Positions 59,365-64,000 of a stretch of 64,000 nucleotides of DNA are shown piece after piece; position 1 is the stretch's first letter; every line of letters begins with the position of its first letter. The notes beneath the pieces were generated by a model that was given only the letters and a program-made list of their open reading frames with translations, was not told the origin of the DNA and did not search any database. Position numbers and translations under genes: made by a program. This stretch comes from Photobacterium sp. GJ3. Its GTDB lineage: Bacteria > Pseudomonadota > Gammaproteobacteria > Enterobacterales > Vibrionaceae. The stretch is from positions 620,001 to 684,000 of the forward strand of contig NZ_CP073579.1 in NCBI RefSeq assembly GCF_018199995.1, given 5' to 3'.

Positions 59365-59983
59365 ATATGGCGTTCAGCAGGACCCGGACTGCTACCCGGA
59401 TTCTGCAGTACTGATTAATTTATTAAATATTGAGGATGAAGATGAACTGGCTTTGGCTGAACGTGATTTTACGCGTGTCAGAGCAGAGCATTTTGAACCG
59501 CAATTTGACCAATTTCATCTTACTTATCTGAAAACCATTCATTTTACCCTGTTCCAGGACATCTACCCATGGGCCGGGCACATTCGCCGCGTAGACATCA
59601 CCAAAGGGCAAACGCGTTTCTGCCATGCTGGCAATATCGAACGTGAAGCAGAACGGCTGTTTGCGGCTTTAGAAGCAGATGCTTTTCTGTGTGGGTTGAA
59701 CTTTGATACATTCATTCAACGGGTTGCGCATTATTATTGTGAATTGAATGTCATTCATCCCTTCAGAGAAGGGAACGGTAGAGTACAACGCATCTTCTTT
59801 GAAATTCTGGCCCTGAATGCCGGTTACGAAATCTGCTGGGAAGGGATCAACCTGAAAGAGTGGGTTGCTGCGAATCAAGCCGGCTATTTCGGTGAACTCA
59901 AGCCTCTTGAACGGTTATTTGAGAGAATCACTCAGCCGATGCAGGACACACACTCGCCACAATGGGCATCCAGTCCAGGCTGA
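59354..59983 (+). CDS. fic: Fic-domain AMP-transferase toxin
   Basis: 209 residues. Complete Fic active-site loop HPFREGNGR (catalytic histidine at about residue 135), preceded by the flap region TKGQTRFCHAGNIEREAERLF and by DIYPWAGHIRRVDITKG typical of stand-alone bacterial Fic. No inhibitory helix is encoded in the protein itself; the partner upstream supplies it (class I). It should adenylylate a target such as a topoisomerase, as known members do. Located at the start of the accessory region, next to an integrase on the opposite strand. Confidence 0.93.
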   Translation: MRDKYGVQQDPDCYPDSAVLINLLNIEDEDELALAERDFTRVRAEHFEPQFDQFHLTYLKTIHFTLFQDIYPWAGHIRRVDITKGQTRFCHAGNIEREAERLFAALEADAFLCGLNFDTFIQRVAHYYCELNVIHPFREGNGRVQRIFFEILALNAGYEICWEGINLKEWVAANQAGYFGELKPLERLFERITQPMQDTHSPQWASSPG

Positions 59984-60006: not shown

Positions 60007-60975
60007 TTACCTTTCCCAGGGTTTCTTTTTTACATACCGGGCAATTTCAGTATCATGCTTATCTTTGTGACCCGCATACTGAGCGGGCATGGCAGGGCTT
60101 TTCCAGCGCCCCTGAGATTGAATCTCGTGGATGGTCACCCCTGCATCTGAGAGATCTTTCACTGCGCCAACCCGAGGGGATTGTCCGGAAAATATCGTCT
60201 CGTGACTGATGCCAAGCTCGTCGCCAGCACGGCGGAAGACACGATAGATTGATGAATGGTCTAATGCCTGATCGCCAATATTTCCATGGCGGTCGATGCG
60301 TCGGAACAATATGCCGCTATCAAGGCTACCTATGATTAGCCAGCGTTGTAGTGCTTGCGATGCCAGGCTGCTCAATTCAATGCGGTGTTCTTTGACGAAC
60401 AAAGAAATTAATCCGGAAGGGGCGATTTCCAAGTCTTCGACTGTTAATGCTGCGAGCTCACTACGTTTCAGCATGGCTTCGAACATCACCGACCATATGG
60501 CCATATCACGGACATCTTTGGGCTTGGTTGCGAGCGCAAAAACATCCAGCAATTGCTGAAGATGGTCATCCCGAAAGGCGGCAGCATTTTTATAATCATC
60601 CTGCTTTTCTATTCGATACTTGTTCAGCACGAGCCTGACTTCTGTATGCCGACAGGGGTCGGGGAGTGCATGACAGCGGTGCACTAATCCAATGGTGACA
60701 ATGTAACGCTTCAGGCTGGCGAGTTTCCTTTTCTGTGCCATCCGATCAATAAATTCGTGCACAGTTTTCACTGCAGCGGGCAGCGGCTCCATTTTTGTTT
60801 CCAGGCAAAACTCAAGAAAATGGTTCCAGTCATTTTTAAAGGCAAGTAGTGTATTGGCAGAGTACTGTTGATGCGTCAATATACGCCACGCTTCGACATC
60901 CTCGATTGGCACAGAGAATTTTTGGACACTTGCTCGTTGCTTTGATTCGTCTTGAATCGCAGGGATATTTTTCAT
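60007..60975 (-). CDS. Tyrosine recombinase (site-specific integrase), altered active site
   Basis: 322 residues: an N-terminal core-binding domain (about 35-110: SANTLLAFKNDWNHFLEFCLE) and a C-terminal catalytic domain. Catalytic positions: where XerD has GLRVSEL this reads MLKRSEL (Arg to Lys at the first arginine position), SGQSPRVGAVKDL (usual histidine is glutamine, arginine kept), GRWKSPAMPAQY (Trp and nucleophile Tyr kept). Two replaced positions may mean low or no activity, or my alignment is shifted by one residue. No attachment site was identified. Converging with fic. Confidence 0.82.
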   Translation of the reverse strand: MKNIPAIQDESKQRASVQKFSVPIEDVEAWRILTHQQYSANTLLAFKNDWNHFLEFCLETKMEPLPAAVKTVHEFIDRMAQKRKLASLKRYIVTIGLVHRCHALPDPCRHTEVRLVLNKYRIEKQDDYKNAAAFRDDHLQQLLDVFALATKPKDVRDMAIWSVMFEAMLKRSELAALTVEDLEIAPSGLISLFVKEHRIELSSLASQALQRWLIIGSLDSGILFRRIDRHGNIGDQALDHSSIYRVFRRAGDELGISHETIFSGQSPRVGAVKDLSDAGVTIHEIQSQGRWKSPAMPAQYAGHKDKHDTEIARYVKKKPWER

Positions 60976-61710: not shown

Positions 61711-62322
61711 CTAATTGTGCGTCAGTCTCAAAATTGAGCGGATGTCACGATAGCAATCCTCAGTAGCGGTAAAGTGAAATGCCGCCATACCAAGCTGTCT
61801 GGCCGTTTCAACATTCGGCGTATTATCATCAATGAAGAAACAGCTTTCAGGCTGTAGCCCATACTTTTCCATAAATCGTTGGAATATAGCAGGTTCCGGT
61901 TTCAACAGCAGTTCTCTGGCAGAAACCAAGCCACCATGAAAGTCATCAATAAAATCATGCTTGTCGTAAAGCGTATCAAAGAAGGCGCTACTCATGTTCG
62001 TAAGATAGTAGACATGAAAGCCTTTCGCGATGAGCTCATCCAACAACGCTTTTGTCTCTTCGATGAGGTGCAAACTGTTTTGGATATGATGAATAAAGTC
62101 TTCCATACGAGCTTCAGGAAAACCGGTTCGGGCAGCAAACTTAGGGATGACTTCCGCCATGAACATCGTGCCACGATCCAGATCGAGCCAGTCGGTATGC
62201 TTTAACACATTGTTTAGCAACAGATCTTGCTCGTAGCTGGATTGAGTGAATGTCTCCGCAATCTTTCGCGGGTTCCACTCGAACAGCACACCACCAAAGT
62301 CAAAAATTACGTTACGAATCAT
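61711..62322 (-). CDS. HAD-superfamily hydrolase
   Basis: 203 residues. Motif I FDFGGVLFEW, motif II LTNMS, motif III lysine in LLLKPEPAIF, motif IV FFIDDNTPNVETARQLGM, with an alpha-helical cap (about 17-90), so a subclass IA enzyme of the YihX type. The second aspartate position of motif I is glycine-substituted, as in YihX-like sugar-phosphate phosphatases (FDxGN/GV). Small phosphomonoester substrate is unknown. Divergent from the SUI1-type gene. Confidence 0.82.
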   Translation of the reverse strand: MIRNVIFDFGGVLFEWNPRKIAETFTQSSYEQDLLLNNVLKHTDWLDLDRGTMFMAEVIPKFAARTGFPEARMEDFIHHIQNSLHLIEETKALLDELIAKGFHVYYLTNMSSAFFDTLYDKHDFIDDFHGGLVSARELLLKPEPAIFQRFMEKYGLQPESCFFIDDNTPNVETARQLGMAAFHFTATEDCYRDIRSILRLTHN

Positions 62323-62441
62323 ATGCGTTTCCGTTAGGTACCTATTTATTGATATTATTCTGGCTCAGCCTGGTCGCAAACATCTATATTCATCCTGAAG
62401 ACCAGGTCACATTTTTTATCAGGCCAGTAGGACATTTTGCA

Positions 62442-62765
62442 ATGAGTGATAGCAGCCGTTTAGTTTTTTCCACAGAAACGGGTCGAATCAAAGAAGAGAA
62501 AGCAGCACCAGAGCGCCCCAAAGGAGATGGTGTCGTTCGTATCCAGCGACAGACGAAAGGCCGTAAAGGGAAGGGCGTGTGTATTGTCACCGGGCTTGAT
62601 ATGAATGATACCGAACTCAAACTTTTGGCCGCAGAACTCAAAAAGGTTTGTGGTTGCGGTGGTTCCGTGAAAGACGGAAGCATTGAGATTCAGGGCGACA
62701 AGCGCGACCTGCTGAAAACGACACTTGAGAAAAAAGGCCATACCGTAAAACTCGCAGGCGGTTAA
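62442..62765 (+). CDS. SUI1/YciH-family translation factor
   Basis: 107 residues from ATG 62442 (AGGA 9 bases upstream). Polar N terminus, then the SUI1/eIF1 domain: RIQRQTKGRKGKGVCIVTGLDMND, KVCGCGGSVKDGSIEIQGDKRDLL and the C-terminal GHTVKLAGG. Binds the ribosomal P site in E. coli YciH and represses stress translation initiation. Upstream in-frame sequence overlaps the neighbouring divergent gene and is not used. Terminator hairpin follows. Confidence 0.92.
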   Translation: MSDSSRLVFSTETGRIKEEKAAPERPKGDGVVRIQRQTKGRKGKGVCIVTGLDMNDTELKLLAAELKKVCGCGGSVKDGSIEIQGDKRDLLKTTLEKKGHTVKLAGG

Positions 62766-62905: not shown

Positions 62906-63145
62906 TGGACCATCAATGCTGATGGTTCATTCACGATTAACGGTATTTGTACTATTTTAGGTAACTTGATCAGGCAAAACAGTTATTATTCTGTGGTTTC
63001 AGCGGAAGCAGTTCAGTACTCAGACCAAGCTTTGAATGGCACGCATCTTATGAACGGTTCGCCTGCTGGCCAGACCTATAATGCTAGCATCATCGGGCTG
63101 TACACCAATTACCTAAACCAATACAGCCTGAAATTTACATTGTGA
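62906..63145 (+). pseudogene. Orphan open frame without start, possible C-terminal remnant
   Basis: 79 codons open from just after a stop (62903-62905) to TGA at 63143, reading WTINADGSFTINGICTILGN and ending TNYLNQYSLKFTL. No ATG near the beginning and no ribosome site, but the sequence is protein-like and Ser/Asn/Gly rich. It may be the tail of a surface or secreted protein cut off by an insertion or deletion. No family recognised. The stretch is A+T-richer than the neighbouring genes. Confidence 0.4.
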
Positions 63146-63162
63146 ACGAATAAAATATGAAG

Positions 63163-63190
63163 ACAAACGAACATTTTGCCGTTCGTTTGT
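63163..63190 (+). terminator. Perfect 10-bp hairpin after the orphan frame
   Basis: ACAAACGAAC/GTTCGTTTGT, 8-base loop, 17 bases after the TGA of the orphan frame, as expected of its original terminator, though the tail TCC is not T-rich. Confidence 0.5.
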
Positions 63191-63385
63191 TCCAGGTAAT
63201 TACACTGTCTTTGAAGAACAAGGCAAACTGACCATTTGCAGCAGAACTTCAATAAAGTGTTAATTACCTATTTTATGGTAAATCAGCGTTATGGTTAAAT
63301 GGCTCGTTTTTCAACGACGTCATGCTTAAAAAGAGCAAGTGCGGGGTTCCCAAAGACGGTTGATAATGGAGCTACCGGACACTAC

Positions 63386-63413
63386 ATTTAACATAATCTA
63401 TGTTATGCGTACT
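63386..63413 (-). promoter_or_regulatory. dif-like XerC/XerD recombination site
   Basis: On the minus strand the 28 bases read as a XerC arm AGTACGCATAA, a 6-base centre CATAGA and a XerD arm TTATGTTAAAT. The XerD arm is identical to that of E. coli dif; the XerC arm differs from E. coli (GGTGCGCATAA) at two of eleven positions. Spacing is exact. It lies between the orphan frame and an insertion sequence. It could be the chromosomal dif, or a site left by an element that integrates through XerCD; the sequence alone does not tell. Confidence 0.7.
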
Positions 63414-63429
63414 GAATCTGTAAGATCTA

Positions 63430-64000
63430 GTTAGAAATGTCAGGTTTGAGCCAGATTGAAATGTCATGTTGTTCTAGCTTCAAAACACGCTTTCTTTAAC
63501 AGTGTTTGGAGCCCGTGGATGCTATTAACCATGACTGACAGTGAATTACTGAGAATCAAGCTCATCCAAGACATCTGTGACAAACGGCTCACCGGTGTTG
63601 AGGCTGCCCGCTTACTTAAACTGAGCCCGCGCCAAGTTTATCGTTTGGTCAAACGCTTCATTGAATTAGGCGCTGCTGGTTTGGTTTCATTAAAATGTGG
63701 CCAACCAGGCAATCATCGCCATGATGATAAATTAAAATTACAGACATTGGCTTTGCTCCATCAGCGATACAGCGACTTCGGTCCGACATTGGCTCATGAA
63801 AAACTCTCCGAGGATCATGACATCCATGTTTCCGTTGAAACCCTGCGCCAATGGATGATCGCTGACGGTCTTTGGGTTCCCCATGCCAAACGCAAGCCAC
63901 GCGTCTACCAGCCTCGTCATCGTCGTGATTGCCTGGGTGAATTGGTTCAAATTGACGGCTCCCACCATGACTGGTTCGAAGGCCGCAGCCCTAAATGTTG
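63430..64000 (+). mobile_element. ISNCY-type insertion sequence, left part
   Basis: Contains the start of an ISNCY-type transposase and, upstream, two direct copies of GAAATGTCA (63434-63442, 63458-63466) 24 bases apart, which may be transposase-binding sites at the left end. Exact end not determined because the right end lies outside the window. Confidence 0.6.
63519..64000 (+). CDS. ISNCY-family transposase (3' end outside window)
   Basis: The frame is open from ATG 63519 (GGAG 7 bases upstream) to the end of the window, about 160 residues. N-terminal helix-turn-helix (LTGVEAARLLKLSPRQVYRLVKRF), middle block FGPTLAHEKLSEDHDIHVSVETLRQWM, and the opening of the DDE integrase core LGELVQIDGSHHDWFEGRSP, with the first catalytic aspartate. 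These blocks match ISNCY transposases (IS1202-like group) as remembered. A shorter start at ATG 63531 is possible. Intact as far as seen. Confidence 0.82.
   Translation, partial: MLLTMTDSELLRIKLIQDICDKRLTGVEAARLLKLSPRQVYRLVKRFIELGAAGLVSLKCGQPGNHRHDDKLKLQTLALLHQRYSDFGPTLAHEKLSEDHDIHVSVETLRQWMIADGLWVPHAKRKPRVYQPRHRRDCLGELVQIDGSHHDWFEGRSPKC

Follow-up and report, generated by a model that had tools for sequence, protein, structure and literature searches.

A companion element on the XerD side of dif2 in a Photobacterium second chromosome, recurrent beside dif in the Vibrio family and possibly an accessory Xer module

What is the dif-like site carried on the minus strand of this stretch, and does the DNA beside it belong to it? 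The window, by which we mean the whole 64-kb stretch of DNA analysed, contained a single match to the dif pattern at up to three mismatches, and 100 shuffles of the window gave 0 matches. The match reads as follows.

63386..63413, minus strand: dif2, 28 bp, with XerC arm AGTACGCATAA, centre CATAGA and XerD arm TTATGTTAAAT

Re-reading of the sequence bore out the minus-strand site that an initial annotation had placed here, together with its perfect XerD arm (TTATGTTAAAT) and an XerC arm matching at 9/11 positions, the other 2/11 differing from the E. coli arm GGTGCGCATAA. The same annotation called the six-base centre exact, and this was wrong; the site has CATAGA, and the canonical beta/gamma-proteobacterial centre is TGTATA (PMC2533119, excerpt). 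A scan of the genome (5,310,201 bases in contigs of 3,603,274, 1,690,710 and 16,217) at up to three mismatches found two dif sites, namely dif2 at C2:683386 and dif1 at C1:1568463, the latter reading AGTACGTATTA TGTACA TTATGTTAAAT. With one site on each chromosome, the expectation that such sites are rare held. A canonical dif elsewhere, which had been named as counting against the site, exists only insofar as chromosome 1 owns dif1, and none further was found on chromosome 2. The suggestion that an integrated mobile element using XerCD (IMEX) ended here gained no support and was rejected, since a directly repeated partner site is absent from chromosome 2 at up to three mismatches.

The alternative suggestion, that the site marks the terminus, proved right, as both GC skew and KOPS polarity switch at the site. 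In the 8-20-kb samples of C2 from which skew and GGGNAGGG counts were taken, GC skew lay between +0.007 and +0.107 in all blocks as far as 676 kb, starting at position 1, was about zero (−0.0008) in the block straddling dif2, ranged from −0.018 to −0.087 between 684 kb and 1.51 Mb, and was positive again from 1.56 Mb. The sign change between 1.51 and 1.56 Mb therefore places the skew minimum there, about 0.81-0.86 Mb from dif2 one way and 0.83-0.88 Mb the other way. KOPS GGGNAGGG occurred 18 times forward and 3 times reverse in the samples left of dif2, and 2 and 12 times, respectively, in those to the right up to 1.51 Mb, a tally that leaves out the 7/7 block at 1.56 Mb. This block (C2:1560001-1570000), near the skew minimum, holds GGGNAGGG seven times on each strand within 10 kb and is probably a repeat. 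The cumulative skew peaked at window position 59925, 3.5 kb off dif2, within the surrounding 144 kb, and 3.6 kb from dif1 within 80 kb of C1. The site at 63386-63413 is almost certainly dif2 of the 1.69-Mb second chromosome, the predicted XerC/XerD crossover point for resolving chromosome 2 dimers.

Similar pairs of sites were found across the genus. At least one dif site at up to one mismatch was present in 51/52 Photobacterium genomes, and exactly two in 36/52. In the set examined, the dif centres were unlike within the genome in all 54/54 genomes having at least two sites; divergent centres between chromosomes were stated as a rule by Val et al. 2008 (PMC2533119, excerpt). The centre CATAGA recurs at a dif of six genus relatives (G011, G019, G032, G038, G039 and G043). 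In G038, the dif types are swapped relative to the present genome, with CATAGA on the large replicon (C1:1770414) and TGTACA on the small one (C2:512457), and its C2 copy of the companion element described below is displaced about 0.9 kb from dif.

Two features of the flanks were absent from the initial annotation: the placement of the insertion sequence (IS) relative to dif and a conserved element on the other flank. The XerC side is arranged as follows.

63414..63418, no strand: interval between the XerC arm and the IS left end, 5 bp, the expected target duplication
63419..64000, plus strand: left part of an ISNCY/IS1202-family IS, whose transposase frame runs past the window to about C2:684943

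The IS that had been noted beside the site is real; its transposase matched NCBIfam NF033594 (ISNCY_2) at 506.3 bits (cut-off 250), a match at the level of the group. The left end, TGTAAGATCTAG, begins at 63419 in fixed orientation, with its TGT 5 bp from the dif2 XerC arm. A short remnant of the same IS lies 5 bp from the dif1 XerC arm, and a 290-bp block that takes in dif and the beginning of the IS shows 96% identity between the two loci. The 5-base intervals are unlike at the two sites (GAATC and TAAGG), as expected if there were two separate insertions. A DNA search of the own genome found no third IS copy, and the best candidate for the right end, at C2:684958, had 10/26 mismatches, with no clear far end or matching 5-bp duplication established. 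Among Photobacterium dif sites, TGT stood at +6 in 36/98, each of the other 13 offsets examined having 0-5, and an in-register transposase was found at 34/98 sites. In Acinetobacter, ISAjo2-type elements have been described that insert at a distance of 5 bp from the XerC arm, both at pdif and at dif (Harmer et al. 2023, PMC10132070, excerpt). The present IS is like these ISAjo2-type/IS1202-family elements in the TGT 5 bp from the XerC arm, the orientation and the ISNCY_2 transposase; however, targeting of dif is on record there for Acinetobacter, whereas here both chromosomal dif sites of a Photobacterium are concerned and the right end is ill-defined. Independently of the companion, an IS1202-family IS takes dif as a landing mark on the XerC side.

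On the XerD side, the following frames were recorded.

60007-60975, minus strand: tyrosine recombinase, 2.4 kb from dif2
62250..62765, plus strand: SUI1/YciH-like ORF (Pfam)
62966-63145, plus strand: small open frame between the SUI1 ORF and the companion

A Fic module had also been placed next to the site; Fic is real and lies about 3.4 kb away. Relatives of the tyrosine recombinase were found at 59-83% identity in 8 loci, 8/8 of them Photobacterium, and 3 also show dif in the stretch examined; its active-site box looks like that of Cre with the first His changed. In two Aliivibrio wodanis plasmids, two integrase genes adjoin the companion. Ahead of the companion, several g12 loci have DNA that resembles a SUI1 C-terminus, as judged by eye from untranslated sequence.

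Going toward dif2, the order on the XerD side is a hairpin, an inverted dif-like 21-mer, a second XerD-like arm and dif2 itself. We refer to this element as the companion.

63162..63190, plus strand: upstream hairpin GACAAACGAACATTTTGCCGTTCGTTTGT, start of the stretch common with the dif1 flank
63194..63269, plus strand: companion hairpin, outer arms AGGTAATTACAC / GTGTTAATTACC, inner arms TTTGAAG / CTTCAA, DNA fold z −3.87
63256..63283, plus strand: inverted dif-like site AGTGTTAATTA CCTATT TTATGGTAAAT, a degenerate dif with a good XerD arm
63263-63283, plus strand: 21-base anchor ATTACCTATTTTATGGTAAAT, the conserved part of the inverted dif-like site
63284..63385, no strand: anchor-to-dif2 spacer, 102 bp, including the second arm
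63289..63300, plus strand: second XerD-like arm TTATGGTTAAAT

The XerD-side flanks of dif1 and dif2 showed 95% identity over 220 bp, and the own genome held two significant companion copies, both at dif, the other matches being 19-22 bases long with E of 0.05 or worse. The companion was found again in 47/52 genus genomes, with exactly two copies in 37. A profile search was then applied to 111 dif loci, 99 from Photobacterium and 12 from other genera (L232, a 100-base placeholder having no dif, was left out of 112). The companion lay on the XerD side in 104/111 and on the XerC side in 0/111, a profile trained on the same XerD flanks being used and 6/111 XerC flanks being shorter than 300 bases; no profile match was obtained in 7/111 dif flanks. 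A companion on the XerC side was rejected on this count. The flank set comprised mainly the best two dif sites per genome, with G005 (contig edges) and weaker extra sites left out. The anchor was exact in 74/99 Photobacterium dif flanks and within three changes in 15 more. The companion keeps ATTA and the XerD arm, the remainder of the XerC-like arm is variable, and the spacer diverges freely while the anchor stays exact. Exact KOPS GGGNAGGG was absent from the companion-dif spacers. One-mismatch KOPS-like motifs pointed toward and away from dif at 9:2 in 87 Photobacterium spacers and 10:0 in 30 g12 spacers, an orientation bias that is only a lead because the spacer sequences are related. G009, G010, G017, G028, G029 and G045 carry additional copies of the companion at 19-43 kb from dif, on the contig that holds it; these are perhaps leftovers of elements integrated at dif.

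How far does the companion extend beyond this genus? A strict pattern (TTATGGTAAAT, 61-121 bases, ATTTAACATAA) was preferred, as a looser one-mismatch pattern also matches dif1 itself. The strict pattern was found in 267/329 Vibrio-family genomes and missing from 62/329, and the reversed-pattern control gave 0; among good-quality family genomes it was found in 256/315, covering 11/13 genera. In an order-wide draw of 394 genomes, 30/34 family genomes carried it, and the 360 non-family genomes gave 10 matches, seven of them in f2 (7/11), one in f10 and two in f12. The matching loci of f2 and f10 have long hairpins. The two f12 matches fold weakly and were set aside as unconvincing companions. 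When 30 dif loci of other families were read directly, the anchor was present at one change in two, both of f2 and 100 bp from dif. At L362 (G482, family f10), a companion with a long hairpin lies 68 bp from a dif having a degenerate XerC arm; the Plesiomonas chromid dif has been described as degenerated (PMC8826520, excerpt), and our guess is that L362 is that chromid.

The companion is also carried by plasmid records, located at the following distances from a dif-like site.

Vibrio fortis plasmid, 332 kb: 100 bp
Vibrio sp. THAF190c plasmid, 1.72 Mb: 100 bp
Aliivibrio wodanis plasmids, 194 and 79 kb: 163 and 163 bp
Salinivibrio kushneri plasmids, 607 and 659 kb: 135 and 135 bp

The dif-like site of the 79-kb Aliivibrio wodanis plasmid has a degraded XerC arm. 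Furthermore, in the TLC-Kn1 phage and V. cholerae pre-CTX records the hairpin is followed by TATTTTATGGTAAAT and, after a further 69 bp, by a dif that has the dif1 centre, the V. cholerae dif1 sequence being tabulated in PMC3089051 (excerpt). Judged from the sequence of these records, the companion is also present at V. cholerae dif1. In IMG/VR contigs carrying the anchor, dif followed 60-164 bp on in 49/51, and we read these contigs as prophage ends at host dif. The Photobacterium companion query found no match among deposited phages, and the L313 companion query matched CTXphi/pre-CTX/TLC records. A phage-borne companion in those records was rejected; the matches are taken for host flank beside an integrated phage, as an integration junction is annotated at this place in the TLC-Kn1 record.

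Next, we analysed the spacing between companion and dif, which is mostly 70-165 bp. In Photobacterium, the distances cluster near 90, 100-102, 109-113, 118-123, 134 and 164. At 10.5 bp, Rayleigh R was 0.56 (phase 6.0) for 89 Photobacterium sites, the 10/99 flanks lacking an anchor at up to three mismatches being left out, and 0.58 (phase 5.5) for 76 g12 sites; these phase statistics ignore kinship, and related genomes are not independent. The observed g12 value was reached by 0/5000 jitter controls, and the Photobacterium value by 344, 5, 0 and 0 of 5000 according to clustering level, the phase test being weak under the harshest clustering (26 clusters, 344/5000). The period was not sharp in g12, where R was 0.60 at 11-12 bp, and in the clustered Photobacterium data 11.5 bp equalled 10.5 at two of three cluster levels. 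Among the matches listed, phases at 10.5 bp were 5.1 in g3, 5.8 in g9 and 5.8 in f2, and genus g10 was out of phase (R 0.35, phase 2.8) with a negative within-genome pair test (u −1.82). The V. cholerae phase was 6.0, and the six named plasmid sites gave R 0.58 and phase 6.4. For 65 within-genome spacing differences of at least 4 bp, g10 included, the best fit among 13 periods lay around 10.25-10.5, and u at 10.5 bp was 4.55; they include g3, G061 and G058 (63 differences and u 4.6 without them) and leave out G063 (difference 18). The companion-dif spacing thus favours one ~10.5-bp helical phase in most lineages tested, with g10 dissenting.

The hairpin was analysed by folding and by covariation. 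Distinct upstream regions had a median fold z of −4.4 (81 Photobacterium) and −4.1 (30 g12) against mononucleotide shuffles, computed with the DNA energy set if provided by the folding library, and z was below −2 in 70/81 and 23/30 of them. Folded as RNA, the region of the present copy gave z −3.66, and its minimum-energy fold pairs differently from the companion hairpin drawn above. Covariation was counted on the g12 counterpart only (34/51 sequences, Photobacterium-type stems and several others being left out by eye). This stem showed two-sided changes at 14/21 pairs, with 101 such cells compared to 43 in shuffles, and a covariation of 0.337 compared to 0.158 when shuffled and at most 0.103 when slid; G-U pairs are present in it. 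RNAalifold returned no consensus structure on the same 34-sequence alignment. Rfam gave no family at gathering score in 8 loci examined and, in a ninth (L001), a single chance-level match below the cut-off (E 0.75), and a known RNA was therefore rejected for the nine loci.

Several explanations of the companion must be weighed. It could have been left by an ssDNA phage that integrated long ago, as an end since domesticated or fossilised, an origin that we consider unlikely. CTX-type attP has the same geometry, a hairpin formed by two inverted dif-like sites with ~90 bp between them (PMC4246890, PMC3089051, excerpts), filamentous prophages favour dif as a hot spot (PMC11630473, excerpt), and the anchor and dif are able to pair at 16-19/21 positions in 101 sites. 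However, it is the XerC arm that attP1/attP2 preserve, their XerD arms being degenerate, whereas the companion keeps its XerD arm (PMC3089051, excerpt), and a fossil would hardly retain a near-exact sequence and a covarying stem beside the two dif sites in many members of the family. We likewise doubt that the hairpin is a transcript feature, a terminator or small RNA shielding dif from transcription, with the conserved arms part of the RNA. The strength of the hairpins, the good RNA fold of the region and the G-U pairs in the covarying stem would suit it, but the Rfam searches do not, and conservation is highest in the XerD-like motif that follows the stem. Moreover, a transcript leaves the phase-locked dif distance and the fixed side unexplained.

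That long near-perfect palindromes adjoin dif at the terminus raises the thought of a cruciform or fork-processing structure for replication termination, in which the Xer-like arms would be incidental. This is improbable, given that the companion also adjoins the dif-like sites of the 79-kb and 194-kb plasmids and that its arm sequence is better conserved than its stem. Very improbable, in our view, is a likeness of the flanks arising from shared ancestry and inter-chromosomal gene conversion only, without function. In 9/54 genomes (G000, G003, G004, G008, G011, G032, G033, G043 and G064), the two XerD-side flanks do share 92-100% identity, up to a point 1-6 bp short of dif, and such identity next to unlike dif centres suggests conversion between chromosomes. 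Nevertheless, free divergence of the spacer beside an exact anchor, and compensatory stem changes, stand against this account.

The favoured phase, the fixed side, the convergent XerD-like arms and the structure-conserving hairpin point instead to a protein-bridged Xer accessory element. Our preferred and unproven reading, to which we give about an even chance, is that dif in the Vibrio family is the core of a larger cis-acting locus and that the companion is an accessory Xer module. More tentatively, and a little short of an even chance, we propose that dimer resolution in this family, and in one or more sister families, relies on a bipartite locus of ~180-220 bp and not on a stand-alone 28-bp dif. 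This locus would consist of dif and a helix-phased companion that contributes extra inverted Xer half-sites and a hairpin; it would occur on both chromosomes and on some large plasmids, and would build a higher-order Xer complex of a kind not known from chromosomal dif. Extra Xer protomers, or another protein, would bind the companion arms; the bound protein might contact dif-bound XerD across the short loop, and this contact might regulate or direct dimer resolution together with FtsK. The companion arm TTATGGTAAAT resembles the XerD arm of VGJ-type attP, TTATGGTAAAA, a site used by Xer (PMC3089051, excerpt). In E. coli, V. cholerae dif1/dif2 placed on plasmids recombined in an FtsK-dependent manner (PMC2533119, excerpt); depending on the flanking DNA that those plasmids contained, the companion may be dispensable for dif recombination.

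The dif site is taught as a minimal site needing only FtsK. Recurrence of the companion beside most dif sites examined in the family, mostly helix-phased, suggests sites larger than the textbook 28 bases. If true, an accessory element that is both conserved and phased at the dif of a major family, V. cholerae included, would redefine the site, and earlier dif assays may have left the companion out. It may also be relevant to the sharing of one Xer system by two chromosomes and to the crowding of phages and IS at the locus, and it would serve as a marker of dif in draft genomes and on large plasmids. A description of the companion was not found in the open PMC listings on dif flanks, a scope outside which most subscription papers fall, and the anchor letters were present in the open PMC library only in an unrelated paper.

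Among known Xer systems, the plasmid sites cer and psi combine a core with accessory DNA at a constrained distance; there, the accessory DNA is located on the XerC side and is bound by PepA together with ArgR or ArcA. The companion is alike in pairing a core with DNA at a constrained distance, but it lies on the XerD side and has Xer-like arms and a hairpin. With CTXphi attP1/attP2 it shares two inverted dif-like sites ~90 bp apart; in contrast, attP is phage-borne and keeps the XerC arm with a degenerate XerD arm, and the companion shows the reverse (PMC3089051, excerpt). Conserved XerC arms in both inverted sites, by which the CTX type is recognised, are thus not seen in the companion. Finally, the present sites are like V. 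cholerae dif1/dif2 in having one dif per chromosome, divergent centres, KOPS GGGNAGGG and a skew switch (PMC2533119, excerpt). Val et al. 2008 reported the dif1/dif2 flanks across Vibrio species to be without conserved motifs (PMC2533119, excerpt); in contrast, a conserved companion was found here, also at V. cholerae dif1.
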